Assembly (NCBI GenBank): GCA_021774735.1
Contig: JAJFIS010000047.1
Span: 62,001 to 126,000 of the forward strand
Direction: 5' to 3'
DNA: 64,000 bases
From: Alphaproteobacteria bacterium
GTDB lineage: Bacteria; Pseudomonadota; Alphaproteobacteria; Sphingomonadales; Kordiimonadaceae
The notes under the pieces are model-generated. The model had not been told where the DNA came from and ran no database searches. It worked only from the letters and a program-made list of their open reading frames with translations. Every line of letters begins with the position of its first letter. Position 1 is the stretch's first letter. Of the stretch, positions 3,091 through 45,370 are shown in pieces. A program made the translations under genes and the position numbers.

Positions 3091-5922
3091 TCACTCACTA
3101 GCTTTCATTTGTGTAATTCTAGAGCGTGCATCCTCATACCCATCAAATTTTTGCGATAGGTCAGTTGCTTTTACCAAAGCATTTAGGGCTTCTGCCGATT
3201 TATTATCGGCTAACAGTGCCAACCCTAGATGATAATGATAAATCGCTTTAAAGGGCTTTCCTTTAATAGCTTCTTGAAAAAGCGTAATGGCTCGGCTTGG
3301 GTTATTTTCCATTCTTAAGAGTATCCAACCTAGCGTATCAGCAAACTCGGGTAGCTTATGGCCAATGTTATAGGCACGCTCTGCTGTTTCTTTCGCCCGC
3401 CTATCGTCCACCTGCATATAGGCCCATGCTAAATTATTTAAAATGATTGGATTGTCATGGCCATCAGCCAAAATCCTTTCATACTGCGCAATTGCCGATA
3501 CGTTATCTCCTGAACCAAGATAAATATCACCCAAGGCCACACGGGCTAAAGCGTCTTCAGGATTATTAGCTATCCAATCTGCCAATGTTTTCTTTGCACT
3601 AATCGTATCGCCACTAAGATTCTGTGATGTAGCCAAGCCAATCCGTAATTTAGAACTGTCCATACCAGCATCTAGAGCAGTTCCATAGGCAGCAATAGCG
3701 TTTTCATATTGCTTGTTCGCCATATAAATTTCGCCCAAAACCACGCCAGATATTTCAGCATCTGGATATAGTTTTCTGATATCATGAGCATAGGTTAAGG
3801 CGGCCTCATAGTTGCCCAATGACTTCTCGATAGTGACTAGGTCCGCAAGAAAGCCTAATGTGGATAGGCCTTTTTCGGTTGCAATATCCCTGCCGCGCAG
3901 TAAAACAAGGCGAGACCTTTCTGAAAAGCCAGCCCTTAAAAGAGCATTACCATATTCACGGTATAAATCCGTATTATCTGGGTCATTATCAAGCAAACGC
4001 CCATAGGTTCCAATGGCACCGTCAAAATCCTTAGACAAAATCTGTATTTGACCCAATTTTCTACCAATCAGGCTAGAATTTGGAAAATCCCTTTCAGCCG
4101 CGAGCATTACTTTATGTGCTTCATCAATGTTATTGTTGGCCAGCAAGGCATCCGCGAGCAAAAAGCGTAATCTTTCCGCATCACTTTTAAGGTCCACAGC
4201 CTGACGGGCAAAGTCCACTGCAGCTTGAAAATTACTTTGCTTAACCTTCAATCGTGCTAAAGCAACAACAGCACGGATATCATCACGGCTATCGCCTAAA
4301 ACACGTCGTAGTTCGCGCTCTGCATCTGCTAATTTTCCTGCTGTTTCATAAATTTCCGCGAGATTTCGACGGGCAGCAAAATATTTAGGTTCAAGATCCA
4401 AGGCTTGTAGGAATTTTTCTTCTGCTTCCGCGTATTTTTTCTCGCTCAGATCAATTACACCCATAATATTATAGCCAACGGGATCTTCAGGGCGGCTCTC
4501 AATTAATATTCTTGCGGCTTTTCGCGCCGCCGCATAATTGCCGCGTCCACGCTCGATTAATGCCAAAAGTATAGCAGCGCGCATATTGCTTTCTTCCGCC
4601 ACGCCATTCGTTGCTATATTTTCAAGACCCGCAACCGCAGCATCATCTTCGCCAATGGCATGTTGCCCGAGTGCTAATCTGGTTAATACTTCTTCGTTTT
4701 CAGGCTGACTTTCGGCGGCTATTGTTAAATATTCCGTACCTTTAGCAGCATCACCTAAATTCATATAGATAGTCCCAAGTAAACCAGCCATTTTACCATC
4801 AAGCGGCTCATCGCCATTTTCAACTGGGGCCAGAGTAATAAGGGCATCTGCGGGTCGACCAGATTTAAGTTGAGCTGCGGCCAGCACCATCCGCACCTGA
4901 TTATGACCGGGTACTGCGTCAATCACCCGAGAAAGATATGTAACAGCTGTTGCATAATTCCCTAACTGATAGGCCACAAAACCTTTTGTTATTTGCGCAG
5001 GAAGAAAACCCTCAACAAGGTCGTGTGAGGATTGCAACATTTTTTCAGCGCCGGCAAAGTCACCTTGATGGCTTAAAATAACCGCTGAAATATAATTTGC
5101 CATCTGATTGCCCGGCAAATGACTATATATAACATCTAAGTCCTTTTGGGCCTCCTCATGCTTTTTCATATCTACCAAAAGGCTTGCCCGCTCTAACCGA
5201 GCAACAATATTTCGCCCATAAAGATCAATAGCAGTTGAAAAATAACCTAGAGCGTCATCACTTCTGCCAAAGGCCCTAGATATCAAGCCAGCAGTAAAAT
5301 GCACACCTGATTGGTCTGACCCAACTTCTAATGCCCTCGTTATGCTTTCAAGCGCCTGATCATGTTGGCGCATGCGTAAATAGGATTGTGCCATGCCCAA
5401 ATGGCCATTGAACCGTGTGGCATCAATAATGATAGCTTCAGAATATTGGACAACCGCCTCTTCATATAACTTTTGTCCCATCTTAGAATCACCACGGACA
5501 ATAAGGGCATCATAAAGTTGGTCAGCTGCAATAGTAACGCCGTCTAACTCTTTTTCGGCCTCAGAATATTTTTGTTGTCCCAAATAAGCTTTTGCTAACA
5601 AAACAGCGCTATCCGCGCTAGAAACGCCAAGACTTCGAGCTTTTTCAATGCTGGTTTGAGCAGCGATAGCCGCACCTGCTTCAAGATAAAATTCAGCAAT
5701 TCTATATTGAGCCACACCGTCATTTGAATTGGCCTCAATATATTTTAAATATACCTTTTGAGCTTCTTCAAGCTTATCAGCATCAATCAGTTTTTGCGCT
5801 TCTTGAACAACCGCTTTCAGCGCTGGACTGTCCAGTATTTCTGCATATGCTGGCTGGGCCATTACAACCCCACCTAACAATGCACCAATGAAGAGATGCT
5901 TTATAGAATGTTTAAATTTCAT
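3091..5922 (-). CDS. prsT: PrsT: XrtA/PEP-CTERM system TPR-repeat lipoprotein-like protein
   Basis: This is a roughly 943-residue periplasmic protein made almost wholly of tetratricopeptide repeats. A signal peptide (basic KFKHSIKH, hydrophobic FIGALLGGVVMA, cleavage after AYA) is followed by about two dozen TPR-like units with recurring A-x(2)-Y and AxxxLxxA patterns to the end. Length and position directly after prsR match PrsT, the TPR protein of XrtA loci, thought to act in export or assembly of the exopolysaccharide/PEP-CTERM envelope material. I chose the ATG at 5922 because AAAAGGA lies eight bases before it. An in-frame ATG at 5940 with a weaker GGA is the alternative and would add six residues. 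There is no lipobox Cys, so 'lipoprotein-like' refers only to some relatives. Confidence 0.9.
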   Translation of the reverse strand: MKFKHSIKHLFIGALLGGVVMAQPAYAEILDSPALKAVVQEAQKLIDADKLEEAQKVYLKYIEANSNDGVAQYRIAEFYLEAGAAIAAQTSIEKARSLGVSSADSAVLLAKAYLGQQKYSEAEKELDGVTIAADQLYDALIVRGDSKMGQKLYEEAVVQYSEAIIIDATRFNGHLGMAQSYLRMRQHDQALESITRALEVGSDQSGVHFTAGLISRAFGRSDDALGYFSTAIDLYGRNIVARLERASLLVDMKKHEEAQKDLDVIYSHLPGNQMANYISAVILSHQGDFAGAEKMLQSSHDLVEGFLPAQITKGFVAYQLGNYATAVTYLSRVIDAVPGHNQVRMVLAAAQLKSGRPADALITLAPVENGDEPLDGKMAGLLGTIYMNLGDAAKGTEYLTIAAESQPENEEVLTRLALGQHAIGEDDAAVAGLENIATNGVAEESNMRAAILLALIERGRGNYAAARKAARILIESRPEDPVGYNIMGVIDLSEKKYAEAEEKFLQALDLEPKYFAARRNLAEIYETAGKLADAERELRRVLGDSRDDIRAVVALARLKVKQSNFQAAVDFARQAVDLKSDAERLRFLLADALLANNNIDEAHKVMLAAERDFPNSSLIGRKLGQIQILSKDFDGAIGTYGRLLDNDPDNTDLYREYGNALLRAGFSERSRLVLLRGRDIATEKGLSTLGFLADLVTIEKSLGNYEAALTYAHDIRKLYPDAEISGVVLGEIYMANKQYENAIAAYGTALDAGMDSSKLRIGLATSQNLSGDTISAKKTLADWIANNPEDALARVALGDIYLGSGDNVSAIAQYERILADGHDNPIILNNLAWAYMQVDDRRAKETAERAYNIGHKLPEFADTLGWILLRMENNPSRAITLFQEAIKGKPFKAIYHYHLGLALLADNKSAEALNALVKATDLSQKFDGYEDARSRITQMKASE

Positions 5923-5999
5923 TATGTATATCCTTTTCATAAGCTATTCCAAATGCATGTGTCAGAATTATGCCACTAATATATTCAGAGTATTTAATC

Positions 6000-7358
6000 T
6001 CATGTTGGTGTCATGTCATATTGTTTTAACAAGCCATACAGTGTTGGTCTACTAACACCCAATAACTTGGCGGTTTTTGATATATTATTAGCGGATTCAG
6101 ACAATGCCTGCCGAAGAGCAGCTTTATCAGCCTCCTCCCTTACATGCTTCAAATTTAAAGCTGTTAGAGTATCATCTGATGTCACTAAGTCTAAATCATC
6201 AATGGCAACATAATCACCGTCCGCCATTATTGCTGCGCGCTTAATTTTATTTTCCAATTCACGCACATTTCCCGGCCAATCATGACCAGAAATGGCCCTA
6301 ACGGCATCAGGCGTGAAACCCTTAATGGTGCGTTTCATGTCGGCAGAAAAGCGGTTCAAAAATGAACGTGCTAATAAGACCGCGTCCCCTTCGCGGTCCT
6401 TCAAAGGTGGAATGTTAACAGATATTTCAGCCAGTCGATAAAAGAGATCTTCTCTAAATGACCCATCCTCAATCATTGTCGGTAAATTTTGATGTGTCGC
6501 ACAAATAATACGAACATCCACGGGGATTTCTTTCCTGCCACCAATGCGCTCGACCACTCTTTCTTGTAGGAAGCGTAACAATTTCACCTGCAACGGCAAT
6601 GGTATGTCGCCAACTTCATCTAAGAAAAGTGTACCGTTTTGAGCTAGCTCAATCTTGCCTAAAGTTTGTTTTACTGCCCCGGTAAAAGCACCCTTTTCAT
6701 AACCAAATAATTCAGATTCGAGCAAATTTTCTGGGATAGCTGCACAGTTAATAGCAACAAATGGGCCGTTACTACGGTCCGATAAGTCATGCAGGGCCCT
6801 CGCTAATAATTCCTTACCCGTACCACTTGCCCCCAGTAAAATAATACTCGCATCGGTCGGTGCTACACGCTCGATCATTCGGCATACTTTTAACATGGGC
6901 TCTGATGCTGTAATTAATCCGCCAAGGGCTGAATTTGATTCTAGCGCTTGATAACGTCTGTTTTCAGCCTCTAAATGCGCCACATGAAAGGCCCTATTGA
7001 CAATCAAATTTAATTCATCAGCGTCAATTGGCTTTTGGTAAAAATCCCACGCACCACCCGCAATCGCCTTCAGGGCACTATCACGGGCCTGATGACCAGA
7101 CGCTACAATTACTTTAGCATTGGGGGTTAAATTTAATATTTGCTCTAGCAGGGCAAATCCCTCGGATGTTCCATCAGGGTCAGGCGGCAGGCCAAGGTCC
7201 AGCGTAATGACTTTCGGCTCATGGAGACGAAGTGCCGCAATAGCTTCATCTCTATTACCTGCCAGCTCCACTTGTAAGTCTGAAAAGCTCCACTTCAACT
7301 GCCGTTGCAAGCCATGGTCATCTTCAACGACCAAAATGATGTCTTTTTTATCCGACAT
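6000..7358 (-). CDS. prsR: PrsR: sigma-54-dependent response regulator of the PEP-CTERM system
   Basis: This NtrC/AtoC-type activator has 452 residues. The receiver domain (about 6-125) carries acidic VEDD and phospho-acceptor Asp54 (TLDLGLP). The AAA+ domain has a Walker A GASGTGKE (about 176-183), the sigma-54 contact loop GAFTGA (about 223-228) and Walker B LFLDEV. A Fis-type helix-turn-helix (ISKTAKLLGVSRPTLY) closes the protein. The order prsK-prsR-prsT identifies it as the PEP-CTERM-box regulator, known in other bacteria to switch on PEP-CTERM genes with RpoN. Its natural target in view is the -24/-12 promoter at 15283. All residues needed for ATP hydrolysis and sigma-54 engagement are present. 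Confidence 0.95.
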   Translation of the reverse strand: MSDKKDIILVVEDDHGLQRQLKWSFSDLQVELAGNRDEAIAALRLHEPKVITLDLGLPPDPDGTSEGFALLEQILNLTPNAKVIVASGHQARDSALKAIAGGAWDFYQKPIDADELNLIVNRAFHVAHLEAENRRYQALESNSALGGLITASEPMLKVCRMIERVAPTDASIILLGASGTGKELLARALHDLSDRSNGPFVAINCAAIPENLLESELFGYEKGAFTGAVKQTLGKIELAQNGTLFLDEVGDIPLPLQVKLLRFLQERVVERIGGRKEIPVDVRIICATHQNLPTMIEDGSFREDLFYRLAEISVNIPPLKDREGDAVLLARSFLNRFSADMKRTIKGFTPDAVRAISGHDWPGNVRELENKIKRAAIMADGDYVAIDDLDLVTSDDTLTALNLKHVREEADKAALRQALSESANNISKTAKLLGVSRPTLYGLLKQYDMTPT

Positions 7359-7381: not shown

Positions 7382-9544
7382 TTAACCAAGGTTAGGCTCG
7401 CTTTGATCCATGCTGCGCTGAGACAGCGGAATACGAACTTTTATACAAGTTCCAGTATCAATTTCGCTCACAATTTCCAAACCACCTTTGTGGGCGTTTA
7501 ATACCTTTCGGCACTCAGCCATACCAAGACCATATCCCGTTTCTTTTGTTGTTTGGAATGGCTCAAATAATTTATTCTCGATAAAATCTTGCTGCATGCC
7601 ACAACCATTATCCTTAATTTCGATATTGGCATATTCATTACCCTTTAAAATAACAACTTCCACTTTACCTGTATGATCAATTGCTTCAATAGCATTTTGG
7701 ATTAGATGCCCAAAAATATTGGCTAATTGGTCTATATGTCCCGTTATCCATAAGGTATGCACCTCTGGTTTAAAAAATATGGAAACATCATTTTCAGTGT
7801 ATTTACCAACCACTTGAGATAGAAGCTCATTCACTTCTATGTCTTCGGCATCCGTCAGTCCCAGTTCTGATTGAGAATTTAAGCGAGCAAGCAGCACATG
7901 CATTTTCTCAACAGACCCTTTTAGGGTTTCAAGCATGTCGATGCGAAAGTCGGGGTTATCTATATGGCGTTCTGCATTTTGAACAAGCAAATTTAGCTGA
8001 CTTGTCAGATTTTTAATATCATGTACAACAAAAGAAAAGCGCGCTGAAAACTCACGGAACTGCTTTGTCTCAGCTAGCATCTTCTCGCTGCGTTGTTCTG
8101 CAATATAACTTGCGGATTGAAGCGCAACAGTTTTCAAAATATCACGGTCTTCCCAATCAAGTGAGCGCTTTGCTCTCGGCTTCTCAATGATAAATATACC
8201 GTCGAGCTCCTCTTGGCGAATAACGGGGATAACAAACCACGCTAACGGAAATAAGCGCACCCATTTGGGAACAGCCAAGCCTTGATATATTGGGTCACCC
8301 GCACGCAAACCTTCGAGCTCAATGACCCAGCCTTTTTCTTGCAGAAAAATAGCAAATTCGCTATCTAGCGGTTCTACGCCGTCCACTCCGCCCGAAAAAT
8401 TCCACCGAGCATCCGGTCGCAGAACTGACTTGGTTTCATCGATCAACCATAATGCGCCGCCGGGGCTATCCACTATATCACAGAGCGCTTTGATGACTTT
8501 TGAGCGGAGATCAAGAGCACTATTTTCAGAGACAGTTTTTACAAATTGCAGCCACTCATCACGGTAATCGTAATTATAGGCAAAGAAATGCTTGGATAAA
8601 AATACTCTAACTGCAGCGCGGATACTACCTGAGGAGATCATAGCAATGAGGAAAATAATCGCCGCAAAAACAGCAATTATCTGAAATAAAGTACTATAGG
8701 ATCCGCCTACCTCCTTCAAAAGATATCCGGCTAATGCTGTTAAAGATAAATAGGACCCTACCCCTATTAAAGAGAGCGTATGAAATACACTCCGCCTAGA
8801 AACAAATACATTTAGCCTCCATCCGGGGTTTCGTGCCGCTGCTAATAACAGCAATGGAGCTATAACAATGGCTATACCGGGGCGAGCCAATAGTAATGTC
8901 GATTGGACCGAACCAAACAACAAAGCATCAGCATAAACAACTACATCAAATATATTTTGCCCGGCTAGAGCCAAAACAAGCATTCTAACGCCCCAGCGGA
9001 AATCTTCACCAGACCAACGATATATATTTTCTAGCAGCATTAAAATAAAGACCGCTATGAATAGCCGGACCACATAGTAATAAAGCGCATAATTTTCGAA
9101 AGAACTTCCAAAGTCTGCTTCAAAGGCCACTAAAACATAACCGTCAATGCTCATAAGAAAGAGATTTAATGCGATGATGGCCACAGTCATCGTCCGCGCG
9201 GTAGTACTTTCCGATATGGATTTTTTCTTGCTCTCGGGTAATGCTTCAATAAATTGCTGCTTACCGCGTTCAAAAATAGAAAAAATAAATGCGGCCCAAG
9301 CAATTGAGCGAATAGTTTCACCCATATTCCCTATTAAGATAATGTTATGTGATGAACTGGCATATTCCAAAGCAATAGCGCCCGCCCAAAAAGCCGTAGC
9401 AATGGAGGCGAATATGAGCCAATTCCCAGGGCCAGCTTTGCGCCAACTATAGGCAAGAAATACGGAAAGAAAAATATAGACCAATGCACAGATGCCGAAG
9501 AGAGCAATTTCTAAGCTCCCGCTAATATCTGCAATTAAATCCAT
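7382..9544 (-). CDS. prsK: PrsK: membrane histidine kinase of the PEP-CTERM system
   Basis: The 720-residue sensor kinase begins with about eight membrane segments in residues 10-310, the integral-membrane sensor typical of PrsK. A GAF-like domain follows (about 330-485), then the dimerisation helix with H-box HDIKN (phospho-acceptor His508). The ATPase domain has N-box NAIEAID, G1 DNGCGM and G2 GYGLGM. It ends 23 bases before prsR, its presumed partner, in the same operon. The input signal is unknown; the membrane sensor suggests an envelope or lipid-soluble cue. No missing catalytic residue is seen, so autophosphorylation should be possible. Confidence 0.95.
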   Translation of the reverse strand: MDLIADISGSLEIALFGICALVYIFLSVFLAYSWRKAGPGNWLIFASIATAFWAGAIALEYASSSHNIILIGNMGETIRSIAWAAFIFSIFERGKQQFIEALPESKKKSISESTTARTMTVAIIALNLFLMSIDGYVLVAFEADFGSSFENYALYYYVVRLFIAVFILMLLENIYRWSGEDFRWGVRMLVLALAGQNIFDVVVYADALLFGSVQSTLLLARPGIAIVIAPLLLLAAARNPGWRLNVFVSRRSVFHTLSLIGVGSYLSLTALAGYLLKEVGGSYSTLFQIIAVFAAIIFLIAMISSGSIRAAVRVFLSKHFFAYNYDYRDEWLQFVKTVSENSALDLRSKVIKALCDIVDSPGGALWLIDETKSVLRPDARWNFSGGVDGVEPLDSEFAIFLQEKGWVIELEGLRAGDPIYQGLAVPKWVRLFPLAWFVIPVIRQEELDGIFIIEKPRAKRSLDWEDRDILKTVALQSASYIAEQRSEKMLAETKQFREFSARFSFVVHDIKNLTSQLNLLVQNAERHIDNPDFRIDMLETLKGSVEKMHVLLARLNSQSELGLTDAEDIEVNELLSQVVGKYTENDVSIFFKPEVHTLWITGHIDQLANIFGHLIQNAIEAIDHTGKVEVVILKGNEYANIEIKDNGCGMQQDFIENKLFEPFQTTKETGYGLGMAECRKVLNAHKGGLEIVSEIDTGTCIKVRIPLSQRSMDQSEPNLG

Positions 9545-9552: not shown

Positions 9553-10941
9553 CTATCTGGCCCCATCAGGAAATAGAACCACCCGAACAGTTTGTATGAC
9601 GACAAGAAAATCCAAAAACATTGAATAATTCTTTATGTAATATAGGTCATATTCCAATTTACGACGGGCATCTTCAACCGATGCCCCGTAAGGATAATTC
9701 AATTGAGCCCAACCCGTAATCCCAGGTTTCACACAGTGCCGGTCTTTATAATATGAAATTTCTTTTGACAGCTCATCAACGAAAAAGGGCCGCTCAGGCC
9801 TTGGTCCAACAAAGCTCATATCACCCATCAACACATTCAAAACCTGTGGCATTTCATCAAGTCGGCTTTTGCGAATAAATTTCCCAATAGGCGTGACCCT
9901 TGGGTCATCTTTTTGCGCCCACTGCGGCGTACCGTCAGCCTCGGCATCAATCTTCATCGAACGGAATTTTTTAAGGAAAATAGATTTACCCTCGCGCCCA
10001 ACACGTTCCTGTTTGTAAAATATAGGGCCCCGACTGGTTAACTTCACAGCAAGCGCTGTTGCAAGCATAATCGGTGCACTTATAATAAGAAAAACAATGC
10101 TAACCGTTATATCAAATATACGTTTAAGCATCAGTTCATATATTTTACCGCCTGAGAAGCCTTCTGAATAAATAAGCCAACTGGGTTGAACAGATTTCAA
10201 GTCCACATACCCACGCTCACGCTCATATAAATGAACAGGATCGCTGATACGGATCCCTTGCATCTTACAAGACACAAGGTCTTCCATCGGTAAACCCCCT
10301 CGCCTTTCATCTGGCACCACAATTATCTCTTCAACTTTCAATTGCTCCGCATAGACAAGTAAATTGTCAATATCATCATACGGCACCGCACCTTCAACCG
10401 CCTCTGGGTCGTTCGGCATTAAAATAAAAGCTACAAATTCTAGTGCTGAGCCTTTTTCATTTTTGGCATAATCTAAAATTTTCTGTGCCTGTTTCCCTGC
10501 TCCAAGGACCAGAACCCTCATGCGGAAATCTTCAGCTGACAATAGCTTTTTAAAGAATAGGCGCCCAATTATTATGAACAATGAAGCACCGAAATAACCA
10601 GCGAGCAAATTTGAACGCCAAAATTCGATACCTGGCAAAAAGAAAGAAAGTGTTACAACCATCATGAGAGAGGTAATAAGCGCCATCATCAGGCGAATGA
10701 TATATAGTCTGTTATCCCGCAACACTTGGGGCTGATAAATACCTAAAGCGATTGTGGTCACCGCCTGAAGTGAACTTGCTATTAAAATAATCAGCCATAC
10801 ATCCAGATAGATAATGTCAAAATTTATAGAGTACATCCGCAAAAGGCCACCAGACCAAAAGCCCAGAATGAACAATACATAGTCAAGTAATATCCAAACC
10901 AACGTTAATGATGAAATATAATGTCGAAATAATCGAATCAT
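9553..10941 (-). CDS. Polyprenyl glycosylphosphotransferase of the XrtA/EPS system (EpsB-like)
   Basis: This 462-residue bacterial sugar transferase (WcaJ/PssY superfamily) primes repeat-unit synthesis by moving a sugar-1-phosphate from a UDP-sugar to undecaprenyl phosphate. Four N-terminal membrane segments (to about residue 130) lead into a CoA-binding-like Rossmann domain (VLVLGAGKQAQKIL). The catalytic domain starts at KRIFDI and carries SRLDEMPQ, GDMSFVGPRPERP and KPGITGWAQ. The signature and the position immediately upstream of prsK match the TIGR03013-type enzymes of exosortase-associated exopolysaccharide clusters. The gap to prsK is eight bases, so the two are co-transcribed. Sugar specificity (Glc, Gal or an amino sugar) is not readable. 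Confidence 0.92.
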   Translation of the reverse strand: MIRLFRHYISSLTLVWILLDYVLFILGFWSGGLLRMYSINFDIIYLDVWLIILIASSLQAVTTIALGIYQPQVLRDNRLYIIRLMMALITSLMMVVTLSFFLPGIEFWRSNLLAGYFGASLFIIIGRLFFKKLLSAEDFRMRVLVLGAGKQAQKILDYAKNEKGSALEFVAFILMPNDPEAVEGAVPYDDIDNLLVYAEQLKVEEIIVVPDERRGGLPMEDLVSCKMQGIRISDPVHLYERERGYVDLKSVQPSWLIYSEGFSGGKIYELMLKRIFDITVSIVFLIISAPIMLATALAVKLTSRGPIFYKQERVGREGKSIFLKKFRSMKIDAEADGTPQWAQKDDPRVTPIGKFIRKSRLDEMPQVLNVLMGDMSFVGPRPERPFFVDELSKEISYYKDRHCVKPGITGWAQLNYPYGASVEDARRKLEYDLYYIKNYSMFLDFLVVIQTVRVVLFPDGAR

Positions 10942-11082: not shown

Positions 11083-13128
11083 TTAATCGATCATAAGGTC
11101 TTCTAAGTCTTGGCGAATTGACCTTGCCCCGCCTGATGCGGATTTACTGTGCCCAATACGCCCAAAAAACAATGGCGTGTTACCTTCAAACATTTCATCA
11201 ACCCTATTCGAAACAATGGAAGCTTGTTTCATAGCCGTCTTATTTTCTGTGAAAGCTACACCACGCCGTGCATGGTCGCTAAAGCAAAGTGGCGCTAAAT
11301 TGGGCTGCATTTTCATTTGCATTTCGGTGGCTTTCAACCAAAAGCGCTGAATGCGGCGACCTGCCTGCAAAAGCGTATCTTGTCTATGACAAATCGTTAA
11401 ATCTTCGGGCGGGTCATTTTTCCAATAAATAGAAAAATGTGCTGCACAGCCCCTCGCGGGCATAATATCCATTTCCAGCTGAGCTAAATAAATTCCACCC
11501 ATCCAACGCAACATCACCTGCATTCTATTCTGTGATTGCATTAACCAACGCATCAAAGCTGCGACAATCGGATCTAGGCCTAAAGCGCTAGACGGCATAC
11601 CTGTTTTAGAAAATTTATGCCCAAAATCTATAACACGCTCATGCACAGGATGTGTCTCACCGATTAAAAGCCTAATGCGGGTGCCAAGTGCATTCATCAA
11701 ACCCGCCCGTCTTTTTACTGATGCGCTTTCATGCCAAATAATACCAAGCTCATCCCCAAGTTCTTCTGCAAGCAACTTTTTTTGAATATTTGTAAGTTTG
11801 GTCTGTTTGTATGGTCGCCGGTCAACAGAACGTATAGGAATTTGGCGGCTCAACATATCTTGCATGGCCATATCTGAAGGCAGCATCTTTGCGGTAAATA
11901 CAGCGCTATTTTCTGATATATTTTGCTCCCAAGATAAGCTGTAGCCCTCTTCACCCGCAGCTAAATCAGCCGTTTCCTGCAGCATGCCTAGGGCCAGCCA
12001 TGTTGGCTCTCCATCGCCATAATTATAAACACTAAGTCCAGTATCTAATTGGGCATGAATTTCAAAACAATCATCAGAAATGATTTTAAAACGCCAAGGT
12101 TGGCTATTATCGCCGCTTGGAGCCCAACGGGCCATGTTTAAAATACGCTCGATTGGTCGTTTAAATTCATCGGGACCAATTTCTTTCGGCTTGGCATTTT
12201 TCGACATTTTTCCGAAAAGCCGATAGCCAGCCAGGCGTTTAATGGTCTGCCATGGGTTTCGGTGTCCCCACCATATTTTTCGAATAACATAACGGTTAAG
12301 ATAAGGATCAAAATGGTGAAAATATGGTGCGGGCAATATTTCACCCCTGCCAAGCAAAAGTTTCACCGCTTGAATGCCGGCCACTCCTGCGCAAAGCTGA
12401 CAGGCCATTCCGGTGGATGGCCCCCGCTGACCCGTTAAGTCAATTCGTGATTCGTCTGCAATATAGGGCCGTTGGATCATATAAGGGCTAAGGCCCACAA
12501 GGAAATTAACATATTTAACAACCCGGTCTTGCCCGCTTAGATGATCAAAGCCGAAATAATCAAGAAAACTCATACCGTCAGGCACAAAGATTAAATAGCC
12601 AGCCCCCATTCCCATTGGGCCAGCCGTAACACAAGGAATGCCTAACTCTCGACAGCGCTGAAAACACATTGCGCGAATTTCCAAGACAAAAAAATCAAAG
12701 CCATCAACAAACAAATCTACATCTGTAAGAAATGCCTCTAAATTTTCGTCTTTAATACCGCTCTTGAATGATTTTATCTCAATCTCAGGGTTAATATCCC
12801 GCGCCATCTTTTCAAGTGTTTCGACTTTACTTTTTCCCACCGTCGAGCTCATAGCGCCTATTTGACGGTTGAAATTTGCTAGCTCAAAGTCATCCATATC
12901 TGAAATATGAAACTTACAAAATCCCATCCTCACCAATGTTAATAGGTGCACACCGCCAACGCCGCCCATGCCAGCAATCGCGATACGTTTTGTGCGAAGT
13001 ATTTGCTGTTCAGCGTCGCTTACCCAGCCAATATTGCGAGAAAAGGCCTCTTCATAATTAAAATAGGGACCATTACCTTCTTTTCTGGGAATATCCTGCG
13101 CGCATGAGTGTGGCGAATGCTCTGTCAT
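11083..13128 (-). CDS. E1-like (ThiF/MoeB) adenylyltransferase fused to a nitroreductase-family domain (MoeY/Rv1355c-like)
   Basis: This 681-residue protein joins two enzymes. The N-terminal half (about 25-290) is an E1/ThiF fold: nucleotide loop GMGGVGG (53-59), DMDDFELANFNRQ (about 77-89), and one CxxC (243-246) instead of the two zinc-binding pairs of MoeB. The second half (about 320-640) is a nitroreductase-type flavin fold: RWAPSGDNSQPWRF (about 334-347), then GDGEPTWLALGM and a late CAAHFSIYW. The same architecture occurs in the mycobacterial MoeY/Rv1355c family, whose reaction is not established. Known E1 chemistry is adenylation of a C-terminal carboxylate; known nitroreductase-fold chemistry is flavin-dependent redox. 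The start ATG has AAGGG upstream. It lies 49 bases downstream of the acyltransferase gene on the same strand. Confidence 0.88.
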   Translation of the reverse strand: MTEHSPHSCAQDIPRKEGNGPYFNYEEAFSRNIGWVSDAEQQILRTKRIAIAGMGGVGGVHLLTLVRMGFCKFHISDMDDFELANFNRQIGAMSSTVGKSKVETLEKMARDINPEIEIKSFKSGIKDENLEAFLTDVDLFVDGFDFFVLEIRAMCFQRCRELGIPCVTAGPMGMGAGYLIFVPDGMSFLDYFGFDHLSGQDRVVKYVNFLVGLSPYMIQRPYIADESRIDLTGQRGPSTGMACQLCAGVAGIQAVKLLLGRGEILPAPYFHHFDPYLNRYVIRKIWWGHRNPWQTIKRLAGYRLFGKMSKNAKPKEIGPDEFKRPIERILNMARWAPSGDNSQPWRFKIISDDCFEIHAQLDTGLSVYNYGDGEPTWLALGMLQETADLAAGEEGYSLSWEQNISENSAVFTAKMLPSDMAMQDMLSRQIPIRSVDRRPYKQTKLTNIQKKLLAEELGDELGIIWHESASVKRRAGLMNALGTRIRLLIGETHPVHERVIDFGHKFSKTGMPSSALGLDPIVAALMRWLMQSQNRMQVMLRWMGGIYLAQLEMDIMPARGCAAHFSIYWKNDPPEDLTICHRQDTLLQAGRRIQRFWLKATEMQMKMQPNLAPLCFSDHARRGVAFTENKTAMKQASIVSNRVDEMFEGNTPLFFGRIGHSKSASGGARSIRQDLEDLMID

Positions 13129-13177
13129 AAAGACCCTTAAGAGTAATTTTCTGCAAACTAGCTAATAGATACAATAC

Positions 13178-13954
13178 TTACTCTGCTAAATTAGCAGAAT
13201 CAGTGATTATTTCCCACACATCGGGTTTTTCAATACGCGTGCGGCGCAACATTTCATCAAGGTTACAGTAAATGGGTTGGCGTTTACCATGAAACTCTAT
13301 TGGTTCTCCCACCGACTTAAAGTGTAAACCAAGGCGGCGAAGAACTCTTAAAAGTATTGGATCCACAACTGCACATAGATGGGTCAATTTATGTTTCTGC
13401 GTCATAACAAAAACTGCCTGCATAAGGCCTAAGGTAATATGGGGAATGATCCGTTTAAATCTCTGACTTTCATCCATGTCAGGTATGCCTTGAACCTGTG
13501 GGTATAAGTGGTCCCCCACACGCTTGCGAAATAGCTTAGAAATTGAAAGCCTTGATATTTCTCCCGTGGTTTCAATTGGCATTTGTGAACCCAGTTCCTG
13601 CAAGGCAGTTGATGCAAGCCTTGCTGGTAAGCCGCCAAATGGCTGTTGCATATCAGGCAATACTACCCGCACGGTTCCTGCCGAAGCACCAGTTTGACGA
13701 TGCACAAGTAAGGCCTGCTCAGAATGGATGTCGTGAATGTCGGTTTCCAGCCCTCCAGGGTTTTCTGATTTAGGCAAGAAACCTGTTTCGGTGCAATATA
13801 CTTGATATCTTATTGCATGGCACTCTTGAATGTCTTCAGGAGACTGCGCAATGCGCACCTCGAATAGATTATAATATATGTTCATGAGTTCGCTGTGCTC
13901 CGACCCCAAAGATGGTGTCGGATTAGACATATCGGTTGTCCTTATAAGGCCCAT
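13178..13954 (-). CDS. PEP-CTERM/exosortase-associated acyltransferase (autoinducer-synthase-like GNAT fold)
   Basis: The protein (about 258 residues) matches the TIGR03694-type acyltransferase found only with exosortase systems, a distant relative of LuxI-type acyl-homoserine-lactone synthases. Landmarks are the RYQVYCTETGFLP segment, the acidic DxHDxHS stretch, GTVRVVLP and GEISRLSISKLFRKR, plus a C-terminal segment with PIYCNLDEMLRR. Its product is unknown; by homology it should move an acyl group from acyl-ACP or acyl-CoA to a small amine or lipid. The reading frame is open to a GTG at 13975. ATG 13954 has GGAG six bases away and ATG 13930 has AAGGA eight bases away, so either is plausible. 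A perfect 8-bp inverted repeat lies about 60-85 bases upstream. Confidence 0.88.
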   Translation of the reverse strand: MGLIRTTDMSNPTPSLGSEHSELMNIYYNLFEVRIAQSPEDIQECHAIRYQVYCTETGFLPKSENPGGLETDIHDIHSEQALLVHRQTGASAGTVRVVLPDMQQPFGGLPARLASTALQELGSQMPIETTGEISRLSISKLFRKRVGDHLYPQVQGIPDMDESQRFKRIIPHITLGLMQAVFVMTQKHKLTHLCAVVDPILLRVLRRLGLHFKSVGEPIEFHGKRQPIYCNLDEMLRRTRIEKPDVWEIITDSANLAE

Positions 13955-14012
13955 AACCTTCTCCGCCTGATGCACTACTGTTATAACGCAAGTTGCAAAT
14001 CCTGAACATTAC

Positions 14013-14037
14013 GACAAAGTATTAAGCTCACTTTGTC
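14013..14037. repeat. Perfect 8-bp inverted repeat upstream of the acyltransferase gene
   Basis: GACAAAGT (14013-14020) and ACTTTGTC (14030-14037) are exact inverted copies separated by nine bases. They sit between the stop of the CobT-like gene and the acyltransferase start. No T-run follows on the minus strand, so it is not a standard terminator for the CobT-like gene. It could be an operator for the acyltransferase operon or an mRNA hairpin. Confidence 0.55.
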
Positions 14038-14116
14038 TTTAATTAACAGTATAGTCTTATGTCTAAGTTACTATTCCATTAATCATATGTAAAATATTAT
14101 CTAAAATGGATATAAT

Positions 14117-15088
14117 TCATCTTTGTACTTCACATATTGCTTCTTTAATGGCTCTAACTGCTGCTGGCACATAAAGCCCTGATTGTATTTCTTGGTTAAT
14201 ACCCATAATCGGCTCCATACCGATAGACCGCCAACAAATTTGTTGTGCCTCATTACATGAAGAAGCAGCCATAGAATGCATTAAAATACTGTCCGCATTA
14301 TCATCGCGGGGCAACGCTACCAAAACATGCGCCGCTGCCAATGCAGACCAGCCATCCAACAACAAAGCTATTGATTGGCTTGCACCCGCAACAATAGCAC
14401 CACAAAGCGCTGCCATCTCACGCCCCCCTAAGCGCCGGACCGCCTCAAGCGGTCGTTGGTCTTTCGCAATATGCTCAAGGTAACATCCATGTTTGCGCAA
14501 TAAATCATCTACAAGCACGATACTATTAGCATCCAAGAGCTCAGATTCTATCAATTTTTGCCAGCAGGCTGGGCTCACAGCTGCAATCACGCTTAATGCA
14601 GCTGTGTAATTGTTAGGTGCCATATCACATAAAGCAACAATATCGCCCCCACTTGCTGTAGCTTCCATACCAAAAGCTATGCCTGCCATTGTCGCAGCCT
14701 CGCTTGACACTGGTTCTGGCGCTCCGGCAAAATGAGGCAACTCTAATGCCATATCCAACACACGCAGGCCAAGGCCATCGGGCACACATAAATGGTTCAA
14801 AGGGTCACTACCGCAAGACAGTGCCTGAAAACGTTTTTTTATGTCTGAGACATCTAAAGCCTCATAACTGGATGCAATCATGCACAGATGTACATCCTCT
14901 ACTTTTGGTGACTTACTATCTTGCATTTGGCTAAGCCACCCAAGAATGGCAGCATACGTAACTGAGCTTTCCAAACCTTCGGGTAGTAGCTCTGCATAGT
15001 AAGCCGTAGCATCGCAGCGAGCAGCTTTTGTCAATAAAGATATTTTATTAAATACGTCGGTGAAGTCTTTAAACGGATTATCATTCAC
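14117..15088 (-). CDS. Degenerate CobT-like protein (nicotinate-nucleotide:dimethylbenzimidazole phosphoribosyltransferase family)
   Basis: The 323-residue protein follows the CobT layout. RPLEAVRRLGGREMAALCGAI (about 212-232) and LLLDGWSALAAA (about 242-253) match the conserved core, as does HSMAASSCNEAQQ (about 271-283). The active-site parts are changed. The GEMGIGNTT loop of CobT reads CDMAPNNYT (about 154-162), the early DHG motif reads ASSYEA (about 72-77), and the late GEGTGA segment with the catalytic Glu reads EIQSGL (about 300-305). CobT normally activates the lower base of cobalamin; this copy probably does something else or binds without catalysis. There are no other cobalamin genes in the window. 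The start is a GTG at 15088. It is transcribed toward the acyltransferase and diverges from the PEP-CTERM gene. Confidence 0.72.
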   Translation of the reverse strand: MNDNPFKDFTDVFNKISLLTKAARCDATAYYAELLPEGLESSVTYAAILGWLSQMQDSKSPKVEDVHLCMIASSYEALDVSDIKKRFQALSCGSDPLNHLCVPDGLGLRVLDMALELPHFAGAPEPVSSEAATMAGIAFGMEATASGGDIVALCDMAPNNYTAALSVIAAVSPACWQKLIESELLDANSIVLVDDLLRKHGCYLEHIAKDQRPLEAVRRLGGREMAALCGAIVAGASQSIALLLDGWSALAAAHVLVALPRDDNADSILMHSMAASSCNEAQQICWRSIGMEPIMGINQEIQSGLYVPAAVRAIKEAICEVQR

Positions 15089-15282: not shown

Positions 15283-15297
15283 TGGCATGACCATTGC
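15283..15297 (+). promoter_or_regulatory. Sigma-54 (-24/-12) promoter of the PEP-CTERM repeat-protein gene
   Basis: TGGCAT-gacca-TTGC has the invariant GG (15284-15285) and GC (15296-15297) exactly ten bases apart, as sigma-54 requires. Transcription should begin near 15309, leaving a leader of about 95 bases. PEP-CTERM genes in other bacteria are known to depend on RpoN with PrsK/PrsR, and both regulators are encoded 6-8 kb away here. Confidence 0.8.
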
Positions 15298-15405: not shown

Positions 15406-18400
15406 ATGACGAATAAGCGTAGAATTTTGTTAGCATCAACGGCGGTAATAGCACTTACCGTTACGTTTGGTACGGCATATTTAATCGAGCGTAATTATCT
15501 ATTTCCTGACCCATCGGCCGGTGCAAACCCGCAGGACAGTCAACAAACGCTTGCTGAGGGTATTTTACCTGCTGATGACATGCAATTATTACCCCCACAA
15601 CAAGAAGTAACGGTCGAGGACCTTAAGGAACGGGCAAATATCCGCGTTGGTAAGCTGGCAATTGAACGGCCCGACATAGATAATTCAACAGGTGGGGCTG
15701 GCCAAAATGACGCCCCTAATGTTCGAAGCGTTTCAAGCAAGAGCCAAAGTGGCCGCATAATTAATACGCCAGTCCAGCCTGATGTTATTGAATTTGAAAC
15801 AGTTTCTGCTGAATCAGCACTTAATGCGGCTCTTGCAGTTGATAAAGAGGGCTTTGAGCTCCTTTTATCCTATATGTATCAATCAATGGGTGATCACAAT
15901 CTGCTTGGCGAAATGACCAAAGATTTATTTGACCGATTGCAAGCACAAGCCGCTAACCATGACCTAGCAACTGTTTCTGATGCTGCTAATTTAATAATCG
16001 AGGCAGCGGCTCGGGCCTATTATACTGCTTATATTTCTCCTGTGATTTTAGATAGAAACTTTGCTCTAGTCGATTCTGCCCTTGGCTGGGATCTCGGTCC
16101 GAAAAGTCTAAAGCCATATGTGGGTTTTGATAAAATTGAATCACTAAGCATATATATTAATGGCGAGAAAACAGGCGACGTTGATGGTGGGTTTGGACCT
16201 ACACTTCTAAGCGATGGCATCGAAGGGCTTTCTGAGTTTAAAGTCAGCGGCATTCCTGAAGGCAATTATCGGTTATACGCATTAACGGCTGAACATCCTG
16301 ACAGCGGTGAGCTGTTATACCCATTTGGCTCTGAACTTCGGACCAATCAGGCTACGATGAACCTTGTTGATACACGCACTGTGGAAGATATGATCCCCAC
16401 CATGCGCTTATCCTCGAAGGGCGCAGGACGATTAAAAGATGCCATCCAACTCGCTAGCGATAATGAATTACCGCTAACAGGCTTTATGCTGATGGCGCGG
16501 GCTAAAATTGAAGATGGCCGGATATTGATCGAGTTTGATGCTGAAGCGGGACATAACACTTATGTAACCGCCATCATTTTAATGAATGAAGACGCAATTG
16601 ACCTTCAAGCACTATTAAATCAAGAAGTTGCCTCTTTAATTGATGCGATTGCACCTGCCGCAGGTAGCCCTGCTGCTGGTAATCTGCAAATAATGAATCC
16701 CATCATTGCTTTTGCTACCGCCTCAACTGGCTTACCTGGGCAGCCCAGAGGTTTAACTACTTTTGCAACAGGCGGTGTTGGTCCTGGTCTTGGTGGACCA
16801 ACTAATTTTGCCGGTGGCTCGACGACGACATCCGGTGGCTCAACGACTACTTCTGGTGGCTCGACGACAAGCGGTTCAACAACGACATCCGGTGGCTCGA
16901 CCACAACAGGTGGCAGTACGACAACATCAGGTGGTTCGACCACAACAGGTGGCAGTACGACGACATCCGGTGGTTCGACCACAACAGGTGGCAGCACGAC
17001 CACTTCTGGCGGGTCCACAACTAGCGGCTCAACTACTTCTGGCGGTTCGACGACAAGCGGCAGCACGACGACATCCGGTGGTTCGACCACAACAGGCGGC
17101 AGCACGACTGGCGGATCAACGACTAGCGGAAGCACGACCACTTCTGGTGGTTCAACGACCACTTCCGGCGGGTCCACGACTAGCGGCAGCACCACTTCTG
17201 GCTCAACTACTACTTCTGGCGGTTCGACGACTAGCGGCTCAACTACGACATCTGGCGGCTCGACAACAACAGGTGGCAGTACGACGACATCCGGTGGCTC
17301 GACGACTACTTCTGGCGGTTCAACGACTAGCGGAAGCACGACCACTTCTGGTGGTTCAACGACCACTTCCGGCGGGTCCACGACTAGCGGCAGCACGACT
17401 AGTGGCTCAACGACCACTTCTGGCGGGTCCACAACTAGCGGCTCAACTACGACATCAGGTGGTTCGACCACAACAGGTGGCAGTACGACGACATCAGGTG
17501 GCTCAACGACCACTTCCGGCGGGTCCACGACAAGCGGCTCAACTACGACATCTGGCGGCTCGACAACAACAGGTGGCAGTACGACGACATCCGGTGGTTC
17601 GACCACAACAGGCGGCAGCACGACTAGCGGCTCTACAACGACATCCGGTGGTTCGACAACGACATCCGGTGGCTCAACGACGACATCCGGTGGTTCGACG
17701 ACAAGCGGAAGTACGACCACTTCTGGTGGTTCAACGACCACTTCCGGCGGGTCCACGACTAGCGGCAGCACGACGACATCCGGTGGTTCGACAACGACTT
17801 CTGGCGGCTCGACGACTACTTCTGGCGGTTCGACCACAACAGGCGGCAGCACGACGACTTCCGGTGGCTCAACGACCACTTCCGGCGGGTCCACAACTAG
17901 CGGCTCAACTACGACATCTGGCGGGTCCACGACTAGTGGTTCAACGACGACTTCCGGTGGTTCGACGACAAGCGGAAGCACGACCACTTCTGGTGGCTCG
18001 ACGACTAGTGGCTCTACCACGACATCCGGTGGCTCGACCACGACATCCGGTGGTTCGACCACAACAGGCGGCAGCACGACTAGCGGAAGCACGACGACAT
18101 CCGGTGGTTCAACAACGACATCCGGGGGCTCTACAACGACTTCTGGCGGTTCGACCACAACAGGTGGCAGCACGACTAGCGGCTCAACGACCACTTCTGG
18201 CGGTTCAACGACAAGCGGCAGCACGACGACATCCGGTGGTTCGACGACTACTTCTGGCGGTTCAACAACATCTGGTGGGTCCACGACTTCTGGCGGCAGC
18301 AGTTCCGGCGGCGACATCCAACGCAACCTTATTGCCGAGGCTGGTGAATATAGTCCAGTCATGCTCGGTGATACCTTCTTTATAAGTGCATGCGATTCCC

Positions 18401-18759
18401 AATTTGGTGAGGCTGCCTTAGGCGATGAACTTACTATGGTTGCCATGTGCACTATTCAAGATACCAGCCGCTTTACGATCGATTGGTTCCTTGGGGATTC
18501 ACTGATAGGCTCTGGCCTAGATATCTCTGTGCTCACCGGCTCTGGCCAAACTCTGCCAACCGTTGGCGATTATGAAGTTAAGCTTAATATTGAGTATCTC
18601 GCCTTAACCGAAGCCGGTGCGGTTGACTTCTCCAACCCTATATTGGCCTCAATGGATACGACTATACTTCGGGTGTTTGATGTACCCGTCCCTGCATCGC
18701 TGTTATTGATGTTACCCGGCTTTGTCTGGATTAGGCGAAAATATTTCCCTAAAAATTAA
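15406..18759 (+). CDS. Large PEP-CTERM surface protein with Gly/Ser/Thr repeat domain
   Basis: This 1117-residue secreted protein starts with a signal/anchor segment (about 5-24). A non-repetitive N-terminal domain of about 440 residues follows. A low-complexity domain (about 471-969) is built only of G, S and T in units such as GGSTTTS and GGSTTSGSTTTS. Then comes a 120-residue, possibly Ig/PKD-like region. The C-terminal sorting tail has VPVPAS, a hydrophobic stretch LLLMLPGFVWI and the basic RRK. That tail is a variant of the PEP-CTERM signal recognised by exosortase A, which cleaves it before export. The Ser/Thr run is a plausible substrate for dense O-glycosylation, as expected for floc- or biofilm-forming PEP-CTERM proteins. 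AGGA seven bases before the ATG supports the start. A hairpin terminator follows the stop. Confidence 0.92.
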   Translation: MTNKRRILLASTAVIALTVTFGTAYLIERNYLFPDPSAGANPQDSQQTLAEGILPADDMQLLPPQQEVTVEDLKERANIRVGKLAIERPDIDNSTGGAGQNDAPNVRSVSSKSQSGRIINTPVQPDVIEFETVSAESALNAALAVDKEGFELLLSYMYQSMGDHNLLGEMTKDLFDRLQAQAANHDLATVSDAANLIIEAAARAYYTAYISPVILDRNFALVDSALGWDLGPKSLKPYVGFDKIESLSIYINGEKTGDVDGGFGPTLLSDGIEGLSEFKVSGIPEGNYRLYALTAEHPDSGELLYPFGSELRTNQATMNLVDTRTVEDMIPTMRLSSKGAGRLKDAIQLASDNELPLTGFMLMARAKIEDGRILIEFDAEAGHNTYVTAIILMNEDAIDLQALLNQEVASLIDAIAPAAGSPAAGNLQIMNPIIAFATASTGLPGQPRGLTTFATGGVGPGLGGPTNFAGGSTTTSGGSTTTSGGSTTSGSTTTSGGSTTTGGSTTTSGGSTTTGGSTTTSGGSTTTGGSTTTSGGSTTSGSTTSGGSTTSGSTTTSGGSTTTGGSTTGGSTTSGSTTTSGGSTTTSGGSTTSGSTTSGSTTTSGGSTTSGSTTTSGGSTTTGGSTTTSGGSTTTSGGSTTSGSTTTSGGSTTTSGGSTTSGSTTSGSTTTSGGSTTSGSTTTSGGSTTTGGSTTTSGGSTTTSGGSTTSGSTTTSGGSTTTGGSTTTSGGSTTTGGSTTSGSTTTSGGSTTTSGGSTTTSGGSTTSGSTTTSGGSTTTSGGSTTSGSTTTSGGSTTTSGGSTTTSGGSTTTGGSTTTSGGSTTTSGGSTTSGSTTTSGGSTTSGSTTTSGGSTTSGSTTTSGGSTTSGSTTTSGGSTTTSGGSTTTGGSTTSGSTTTSGGSTTTSGGSTTTSGGSTTTGGSTTSGSTTTSGGSTTSGSTTTSGGSTTTSGGSTTSGGSTTSGGSSSGGDIQRNLIAEAGEYSPVMLGDTFFISACDSQFGEAALGDELTMVAMCTIQDTSRFTIDWFLGDSLIGSGLDISVLTGSGQTLPTVGDYEVKLNIEYLALTEAGAVDFSNPILASMDTTILRVFDVPVPASLLLMLPGFVWIRRKYFPKN
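16816..18312. repeat. Tandem-repeat tract encoding GGSTTTS-type units
   Basis: About 1.5 kb of degenerate tandem repeat with a basic 21-base unit (GGSTTTS) and 18-, 33- and 36-base variants. Neighbouring units differ mainly at third codon positions (ggtggctcgacgacgacatc against ggcggttcaacaacaacttc), yet some longer blocks recur almost unchanged. This points to expansion by slippage or recombination under selection for the peptide. Length is likely to vary between strains. The complementary strand is open over the same stretch, only because the repeat lacks stop-generating bases. Confidence 0.95.
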
Positions 18760-39804: not shown

Positions 39805-40992
39805 TTATAGTATTTCCCGCAGTGCCCTAACGACCTTGCCAACATCTTTCTCTTCCATCGCAGGGTAAATGGGTAAGCTGAGAACACGCTGATAGTATCT
39901 ATCCACACCAGGCAGCTTTTGCACACCGTATAAATCACGATAATAAGGTTGATGTGACACAGGAACATAATGAACTTGAGTGCCGACGCATCGACCTGCA
40001 AGGTTTTTCATTAATTCGGTTCGCGTGGTTCTTAAAGCATCATAATCGATTAAAACAGGGTATAAATGCCAAGCCGATTGACAGTCCACACTGCGCCGAA
40101 CAGGAGACAGTGGTAGATTGCTGTCGGCAAAATACTGGTCATATATTTCAGCTATTTTCCTGCGCCTCGCGACAAACCTGTCTAATTTTTTCAACTGACT
40201 TTGCCCAAGGGCACACTGGAAATCCGTAGCTCGGTAATTATAGCCCAGCTCATGCATTTCATAATAACCAAGATTAGCATTGCCATTTTTATCAAAGGCT
40301 AAATCTTTATTTTTCCATGTCCTTGCATCTCGCTGAATATCATGACTACGCAGAGAACGTAACCGTTCAGCGAGTGCAGCATTCGTCGTTGTCACCATAC
40401 CACCCTCACCCATGGCAATGGATTTCACGGGGTGCAGGGAAAAGGTGGCTATATCTTCATACATTCCATCACCGGGCTTGCCGCCGCTAATATAATCCGC
40501 GCCAAGCGCATGGGCACAGTCGGTAATGACTTTTAGGCCATATTCATGAGCGATTTTATATATTTCTGCGGCATGCTCCGCTTGCCCATTTAACCAAACA
40601 GGCAAAACCACCTTTACACGCGCCATATCAGCCCTTGAGAGCGCCTCTAAAAAGGTCGCCGGTGTCAATAAGCCCGTATCCGGATCAACATCAGCGAAAA
40701 TGACATCAGCCCCTGCCATGCGCACCACATTTGCTGTTGAAAGAAATGTAATTGCCGGAACAATGGCTTGATCGCCAGTCGTAACACCTGCAGCGATGAT
40801 CGCCAAATGCAATGCCGTTGTGCCATTCGAGCAAACAACGGCTTCCTTCACTTCCAGAACCGACGCGAAATCATGCTCAAACTCAGCCGCTTTCGGGCCG
40901 CCCGTGAGTATGCCATTCCGCAGAACATCAACTACGGCCTTGATGTCATCTTCATCCAGTTGATGGCGGCCATATGGTAAAAAATCTGACAT
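39805..40992 (-). CDS. pseC: Pseudaminic-acid pathway aminotransferase PseC-like
   Basis: The 395-residue PLP-dependent DegT/DnrJ/EryC1/StrS enzyme has its Schiff-base Lys in the motif SLHPVKSIAMGEGG (about 183-196) and the cofactor-phosphate contacts CSNGTTALHLA (about 53-63). The family role is transfer of an amino group to C4 of UDP-2-acetamido-2,6-dideoxy-beta-L-arabino-hexos-4-ulose, the product of PseB encoded immediately upstream. The two genes are nine bases apart. This is the last gene of the island on the minus strand, 177 bases from the flagellin 1 stop in convergent orientation. A relative making a different 4-amino sugar cannot be excluded. Confidence 0.9.
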   Translation of the reverse strand: MSDFLPYGRHQLDEDDIKAVVDVLRNGILTGGPKAAEFEHDFASVLEVKEAVVCSNGTTALHLAIIAAGVTTGDQAIVPAITFLSTANVVRMAGADVIFADVDPDTGLLTPATFLEALSRADMARVKVVLPVWLNGQAEHAAEIYKIAHEYGLKVITDCAHALGADYISGGKPGDGMYEDIATFSLHPVKSIAMGEGGMVTTTNAALAERLRSLRSHDIQRDARTWKNKDLAFDKNGNANLGYYEMHELGYNYRATDFQCALGQSQLKKLDRFVARRRKIAEIYDQYFADSNLPLSPVRRSVDCQSAWHLYPVLIDYDALRTTRTELMKNLAGRCVGTQVHYVPVSHQPYYRDLYGVQKLPGVDRYYQRVLSLPIYPAMEEKDVGKVVRALREIL

Positions 40993-41000
40993 ATACGGGC

Positions 41001-42035
41001 TTACGTTTCTTCGATAAGGTTTTTTAAAATTATTCCCAGTTCATCCGGGGTTAGCCACCAATCATTTTTGTCACTGGAATATTCAAAACCTTCTGGCATG
41101 CAAGGTTTTCCTAAATCTTTATAATCGGTTCGCTCCCAAAAAGACCATTCCGTATCAATTACAAATCGGTCGCCCAAATCAAAAGTCGTATGGGCATTAT
41201 GCTCAGTGATCATAATTTCATGAAGTTTCTCACCAGGCCGAATGCCAATCTCTTTAGTTGGTATCCCAGGCGCCATAGCCTCAATAAGATCCATAATTTG
41301 CATCGAAGGGATTTTGGGGACAAAAATTTCACCGCCTTGCATGCTGTTGACGCAGCTGAGCGTAAATTCAACAGCCTGCTCCAGCGTTATCCAAAAACGG
41401 GTCATGCGCTTGTCAGTAACTGGCAGCTCCGTGGCACCATCAGCCAGAAGCTTGCGGAAGAAAGGAATGACACTGCCGCGCGAACCAAGTACATTACCAT
41501 AGCGCACGACAGAAAAATGCGTTGAAGTACCGGCCCCAAGCGCGTTCGCCGCCACAAATATTTTATCAGATGCCAGCTTACTAGCACCGTAGAGATTAAT
41601 TGGGTTAACGGCTTTGTCGGTAGACAGTGCAATGACCTGTTTAACGCCCGATCGTATAGCTGCTTCAACCACATTTTCCGCGCCGATAACATTGGTGCGA
41701 ATACATTCAAAAGGGTTATATTCCGCAAGGGGTACCTGCTTTTGCGCCGCCGCATGCACCACAAGATCAACCCCGCGCATTGCCATAACTAGCCGCTCTA
41801 AGTCGCGCACATCACCGATGAAAAAGCGTACCTTTTTCACCTCTTCAGCGCTTAAACTATTTTGAAGCTCGAAATGATTAAGCTCACCGCGCGCAAAAAC
41901 AATAACCTTACGAGGGTTATGCGCCATCAATAAACGCTTTAATAGTGTTTTACCGAAGGAGCCTGTACCCCCGGTGATTAGGATCGATTTGCCGTCAAGA
42001 CCAGCATCACTACCTGAAAATTTCGTCAGACCCAT
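41001..42035 (-). CDS. pseB: UDP-N-acetylglucosamine 4,6-dehydratase (inverting), PseB
   Basis: The protein of about 344 residues belongs to the extended SDR family of 4,6-dehydratases. The cofactor-binding loop ITGGTGSFGKTLLKRLL (about 22-38) and ARGELNHFELQ are diagnostic of PseB. The catalytic YGASKLASDKI (Y-x3-K) is intact. It converts UDP-GlcNAc to the 4-keto-6-deoxy product with C5 inversion, the first step toward pseudaminic acid. ATG 42035 has AAGGGG seven bases away; the GTG at 42041 is an alternative. It is followed immediately by pseC. Confidence 0.94.
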   Translation of the reverse strand: MGLTKFSGSDAGLDGKSILITGGTGSFGKTLLKRLLMAHNPRKVIVFARGELNHFELQNSLSAEEVKKVRFFIGDVRDLERLVMAMRGVDLVVHAAAQKQVPLAEYNPFECIRTNVIGAENVVEAAIRSGVKQVIALSTDKAVNPINLYGASKLASDKIFVAANALGAGTSTHFSVVRYGNVLGSRGSVIPFFRKLLADGATELPVTDKRMTRFWITLEQAVEFTLSCVNSMQGGEIFVPKIPSMQIMDLIEAMAPGIPTKEIGIRPGEKLHEIMITEHNAHTTFDLGDRFVIDTEWSFWERTDYKDLGKPCMPEGFEYSSDKNDWWLTPDELGIILKNLIEET

Positions 42036-44106: not shown

Positions 44107-44114
44107 AATCTTTG

Positions 44115-45344: not shown

Positions 45345-45370
45345 GGCTGCTATCCTTCAAAAATCTATCT

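Follow-up and report, generated by a model that had tools for sequence, protein, structure and literature searches.

As papers of 2023 and 2025 describe, N-acyl oxazolones are produced by the OxzAB, TyzACB, and TrzAS systems, with acyl donors and aromatic amino acids as substrates, through N-acylation, ThiF-type ATP-dependent cyclization, and flavin-dependent desaturation with O2 (PMC10404671, PMC12856293), and clusters of NasY, ThiF, and nitroreductase genes have also been described (PMC12479983). Oxazolones are destroyed by acid and by alcohol (PMC12856293). What they do in bacterial physiology is regarded in the field as an open question (PMC12856293), and no stimulus was known for the sensor kinase PrsK at the time of its description in 2006 (PMC1569441). 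Here, we analyzed a 64,000-nucleotide stretch (the window) of contig JAJFIS010000047.1 from an alphaproteobacterium of the Kordiimonadaceae (assembly GCA_021774735.1, positions 62,001 to 126,000), focusing on three minus-strand open reading frames that lie between an XrtA-type glycosyltransferase gene and a divergent PEP-CTERM gene and encode a ThiF-flavin fusion (11083-13128), an acyltransferase (13178-13975), and a CobT-like protein (14117-15088). With reasonable confidence, we read the first two as an oxazolone biosynthesis pair within an XrtA/PrsK/PrsR locus and the third as a non-catalytic descendant of CobT that is separate from both the oxazolone and the B12 pathways.

A conserved gene pair with a candidate oxazolone product

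The acyltransferase (265 aa) was assigned as an OxzA/TrzA-type N-acyl amino acid synthase on the basis of NCBIfam, Pfam, and invariant columns. It matches TIGR03694 (exosort_acyl, the PEP-CTERM/exosortase system-associated acyltransferase) with 211 bits against a cut-off of 112, in a genome that bears XrtA at G000:C42:47993, and it also matches the FeeM and autoinducer-synthase Pfam families; E139-x-S-R and other columns are invariant across 13 relatives. A PDB sequence search with this protein returned no match. The adjacent fusion (681 aa) was assigned as OxzB/TrzS-type, combining a ThiF adenylating cyclase with a flavin-dependent desaturase, from profiles (Pfam ThiF, E 4e-41; nitroreductase, E 3.5e-7), conserved residues, and a structure model with a mean pLDDT of 81. 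Its match to the NCBIfam Rv3131 family, an Acg-type FMN oxidoreductase, reached E 6e-19 and lies below that family's cut-off. Residues 22-291 (12256-13065, minus strand) adopt a ThiF/MoeB fold (Z 24) and were aligned to TcdA; the ATP-site residues GxGGVG, D77, D79, N87-R88-Q89, K101, and D142/D145 are invariant in 15 relatives. Residues 322-681 (11086-12165, minus strand) form a nitroreductase-fold, Acg-like FMN domain that matches Acg 2ymv over 294 residues (Z 26.1), the structure that also served as the template for TrzS (PMC12856293), and the RWxPSxDNxQPW motif of this domain is conserved in 15 relatives.

This assignment was further strengthened by gene distribution across 149 related genomes, which are kin to each other, so that P-values serve as a rough guide. 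The fusion occurs in 19 of these genomes, and all 19 carry a TIGR03694 acyltransferase above the cut-off; eight genomes hold the acyltransferase without the fusion and 122 hold neither gene (Fisher P 5e-18, with relatives that are not independent). In every one of the 16 loci read, the two genes are separated by no gene or by one gene, and PrsK lies in the same stretch in 9 of the 16, the window included. Moreover, on a Nitratidesulfovibrio vulgaris DP4 plasmid, FeeM, ThiF, and nitroreductase domains are joined in a single 989-aa protein that adjoins TIGR03013, TPR, and three PEP-CTERM genes. This three-domain fusion comes from a different phylum and again lies in an exosortase locus; it provides the strongest argument that the domains share a pathway and that the exosortase link is real. 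No ThiF-flavin neighbor was seen beside the acyltransferase plasmid matches in Alteromonas and Aromatoleum, and viral contigs gave just two weak matches. In five loci (L049:11314-12480, L053:7586-8395, L108:14288-14956, L109:7489-8244, and L057:8010-9077), an uncharacterized protein is encoded on the opposite strand directly before the acyltransferase gene; these proteins end in a C-terminal hydrophobic stretch with a basic tail, and the three tested had no Pfam match.

The pair resembles OxzA/OxzB, TyzACB, and TrzAS in family and fold and has intact ATP- and FMN-motif residues; its two genes co-occur strictly, and a three-domain protein of natural origin joins their domains. By analogy with these characterized relatives, from which both the reaction and the oxazolone product are proposed, the acyltransferase would acylate a probably aromatic amino acid with a fatty chain, giving an N-acyl amino acid; the ThiF domain would adenylate the carboxylate and close the oxazolone ring; and the flavin domain would desaturate the ring with O2. 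The initial annotation had envisaged an acylated small molecule that PrsK might sense, and an acylated metabolite made beside PrsK/PrsR is indeed plausible, but as an amino acid-derived oxazolone rather than a flavin- or nucleotide-derived base. Speculatively, PrsK might sense such a product, or its site of action might be the cell surface. In Methylomonas LW13, the normal polysaccharide band was reportedly missing from disruption mutants that included the N-acyl amino acid synthase linked to the exosortase (PMC11072679).

The CobT-like protein keeps the CobT fold and has lost active-site residues

No CobT homologue other than the third protein (323 aa, here CobTL) was found in the window genome. 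CobTL was characterized by Pfam, alignment, a structure model, dN/dS, and a tree. It matches Pfam DBI_PRT (E 1.1e-16) and falls far under the cut-offs of the CobT NCBIfam models (53 vs 306 and 47 vs 319 bits), and its model (mean pLDDT 89.5) has the CobT/ArsAB fold (Z 29-32). Alignment to canonical CobT from Hyphomicrobiales and from the same order revealed that, in most CobT-like members, GEMGIGNTT is replaced by an xxMAPGN-like segment and RLGEGTGA by a GPGCG-like one, and therefore the window protein and most of its relatives no longer have counterparts of CobT Glu174 and Glu317. Both residues (Salmonella numbering) are catalytic in CobT. The PDB holds CobT E174A and E317A entries. The VTxQM region and the nucleotide-binding GRGTG...K segment have also been lost in the Kordiimonadaceae proteins. 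Some relatives have the appearance expected of intermediates, with a canonical N-terminal part retained at locus L053 and the GEG motif at L049 and L057.

In a tree that excludes three misframed rows, all 31 CobT-like rows form a single clade (96/87) whose neighbor is Hyphomicrobiales-type CobT; the CobT resident in those genomes branches elsewhere. Pairwise dN/dS values of 0.08-0.28 indicate purifying selection, weaker than that on the neighboring genes, and the frame is open in 28 genomes of the family. CobTL is thus a descendant of CobT that has kept the fold and lost the base-transfer residues and the nucleotide-binding segment, and it most likely acts as a non-catalytic protein that binds a small molecule. 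The reading of three enzyme families in the initial annotation, including a degenerate CobT relative and a nitroreductase fold, was borne out by the profile matches and the structure models.

A separate genomic association for the CobT-like gene

CobT-like carriers were counted by hand, keeping distinct-subfamily matches, excluding canonical CobT, and adding G049 after its locus had been read. The gene was found in 33 of the 149 genomes, and it occurs together with the fusion in two, against 4.2 expected; a single three-gene module was rejected on these counts. The acyltransferase above its cut-off is missing from 27 of the 33 genomes, and the complete trio is present only in the window genome and in G036 (locus L053). 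The three families had been expected to occur together in other exosortase genomes, which largely fails, and the apparent conservation of the trio reduces to that of the acyltransferase-fusion pair. In most Kordiimonadaceae, the CobT-like gene is instead flanked by the glycosyltransferase and PEP-CTERM genes, with neither the acyltransferase nor the fusion. In the related families f4 and f8, it stands with a SUMT gene near the acyltransferase, and two loci have a uracil-DNA glycosylase-like gene as well, a label that is our own reading of a gene with no NCBIfam match. Three genomes (G003, G005, and G010) keep the CobT-like gene without that PEP-CTERM gene and without XrtA above its cut-off, which suggests that its function is probably not tied to the exosortase. 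The fullest layout has all of these genes in one row, and we infer an order of events in which lineages each lost different ones.

Further observations concern the surroundings of CobT-like and CobT genes. At L230:6585-7154 (G001, Kordiimonadaceae), the place of the CobT-like gene is taken by a uracil-DNA glycosylase-like gene, and at L052, in another genome, such a gene stands beside the CobT-like one; many Hyphomicrobiales likewise have one no more than several kb from CobT. At L157:8872-10837 (Tepidicaulis) and L177:2214-4374 (a Rhodobiaceae bacterium), genes for a degenerate CobT and a degenerate CobS-like membrane protein diverge from each other next to SUMT, and no PEP-CTERM genes were seen at these two loci.

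The cobalamin genes of the window genome were examined as well. A CobS homologue is encoded at L103:9900-10736 (G000:C15) beside btuBFCD-like genes and a cobalamin riboswitch (L103:4986-5206); it lacks the DGLADVADGFGGG motif and carries TGLANAVNAFNNG instead. CobU is absent from this genome, and no cobalamin riboswitch was found near the trio. CobS is missing from 27 of the 33 CobT-like carriers, and a homologue is present in 6 of the 33, no more than chance. A degenerate CobS as a general partner of the CobT-like protein was rejected, being seen among Kordiimonadaceae only in the window genome. CobTL most likely belongs to neither the oxazolone pathway nor B12 synthesis.

Weighing the alternatives

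Several points weigh against our reading of the locus. The fusion scores 123 bits against the Rv1355c family, whose cut-off is 476 and whose namesake is TrzS (PMC12856293), and the characterized oxazolone enzymes are only distantly alike, so that the amino acid and the acyl chain cannot be named. Related clusters of Stieleria, Thalassotalea, and Massilia give N-acyl dehydrotyrosines with no oxazolone seen (PMC12479983), and the released product may therefore be an open form. As for CobTL, its catalytic loss is read from residues alone and other residues could form a new site; the GEG motif is retained in a few members (L049, L057, and L058); and the branch of the window protein is long.

In one alternative, CobTL is a live enzyme with changed specificity, one that transfers a sugar-phosphate onto a different acceptor such as a surface-glycan precursor. 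An intact fold, purifying selection, conserved residues of its own (APGN, GPGCG, SSY, and EGW), and a sugar transferase gene that adjoins it in most Kordiimonadaceae all fit such a role; however, Gly, Pro, and Ser make up most of the newly conserved positions, neither Glu174 nor Glu317 is consistently replaced by an acid, and the GRGTG segment with Lys213 is missing in the Kordiimonadaceae proteins, and we consider this enzyme unlikely. That the gene is instead a decaying relic, a chance survivor beside a conserved locus, would agree with its faster evolution relative to its neighbors, its long branches, and the SUMT and uracil-DNA glycosylase-like genes that linger around it and are found near CobT genes elsewhere too. 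The dN/dS range and the open frames reported above and the invariant columns of CobTL and its relatives speak against decay and make it decidedly improbable. That CobTL provides the window genome with alpha-ribazole phosphate for salvaging B12 is favored by the btuBFCD-like genes with their riboswitch, the CobS homologue, and the lack of any other CobT, but that homologue has no DGLADVADG motif, CobU is absent, both CobT glutamates are lost, and most CobT-like genomes have no CobS, which leaves salvage very improbable. Least probable of all is the pathway proposed in the initial annotation, in which the flavin domain makes a dimethylbenzimidazole-like or nucleotide-linked base that the CobT relative activates and the acyltransferase acylates into a non-cobalamin signal: the three genes are adjacent on one strand in the window and close together in G036, but the flavin domain is of the Acg/TrzS type, the fusion has no match to BluB (the top BluB score in the window genome is 45 bits against a cut-off of 150, at another locus), CobU is absent, the base-transfer residues are lost, and the co-occurrence counts run against it.

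Gene neighborhood of the trio

Downstream of the fusion, the minus strand carries an EpsB2-type XrtA/PEP-CTERM system glycosyltransferase (9553-10941; TIGR03013), a neighbor kept across loci, followed by the PrsK sensor kinase (7382-9544; TIGR02916, 627 bits), the PrsR sigma-54 response regulator (6000-7358; TIGR02915, 701 bits), and a TPR protein (3091-5940) that closes the gene row. On the other side, divergent from CobTL, the plus strand encodes a PEP-CTERM surface protein (15406-18759) in which STTTSGG repeats follow a conserved N-terminal region. This region (15406-16700) is conserved in 49 of the 149 genomes and has no Pfam or NCBIfam match. Upstream of the PEP-CTERM gene, a sigma-54-like -24/-12 element, TGGCATGACCATTGC (15283-15297, plus strand), has one mismatch, and such single sites also arise by chance. 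Sites of the form TGGCAC-N5-TTGC with at most one mismatch number 16 in the window vs 7 expected, and the sole perfect one lies at 56921-56935. Further along, 39805-55563 holds a cluster of PseB, PseC, and NeuB/PseI-like genes, probably for a surface sugar of the nonulosonic acid type.

Relationship to known systems

In the open-licence papers searched, we found no link between oxazolone enzymes and exosortase loci, the sole paper with both words being a coincidence, and no mention of a ThiF-flavin partner of the acyltransferase in such loci; a term search of the 2006 description of the PEP-CTERM/EpsH system (PMC1569441) found acyltransferase, ThiF, nitroreductase, and phosphoribosyltransferase all absent from the text. 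The novelty of the link is uncertain. Because a conserved gene row places PrsK/PrsR next to an oxazolone-type pair, and an exosortase locus from a different phylum encodes all three domains as one protein, the stimulus of PrsK and the role of bacterial oxazolones become testable together, and a CobT-derived protein under selection with a lost active site points to a repurposed vitamin B12 enzyme. As a distinctly doubtful extension, exosortase/PrsK systems might use an N-acyl oxazolone of their own making to report on or modify the surface, and the kinase that reads it would be the membrane-embedded PrsK, with the CobT-derived protein, a dead cofactor enzyme, serving as a ligand-binding sensor or carrier for a related ligand.

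CobTL shares with Hyphomicrobiales-type CobT the fold, which is also that of ArsAB, the PFDD N-terminus, the AFGMEA and REIAA motifs, and a tree branch; unlike CobT, the window protein has no equivalents of the two glutamates, FAGNHG, VTxQM, or GRGTG...K, and no link to cobalamin nucleotide-loop genes. The wider locus is like the PEP-CTERM/EpsH system (PMC1569441) in that PrsK, PrsR, TPR, and glycosyltransferase genes share one row. In TyzACB of Mycobacterium tuberculosis, the ThiF protein and the flavin oxidase are separate, unlike the window fusion, and the folds and cofactor motifs are alike. The window pair differs from OxzAB, TrzAS, and Tyz in its setting, an XrtA/PrsK/PrsR polysaccharide locus, and in its low sequence similarity; like OxzA/OxzB of Pseudoalteromonas rubra and TrzA/TrzS (Rv1356c/Rv1355c) of M. 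tuberculosis, it consists of adjacent genes for an N-acyl amino acid synthase and a fusion of ThiF with a flavin oxidase.

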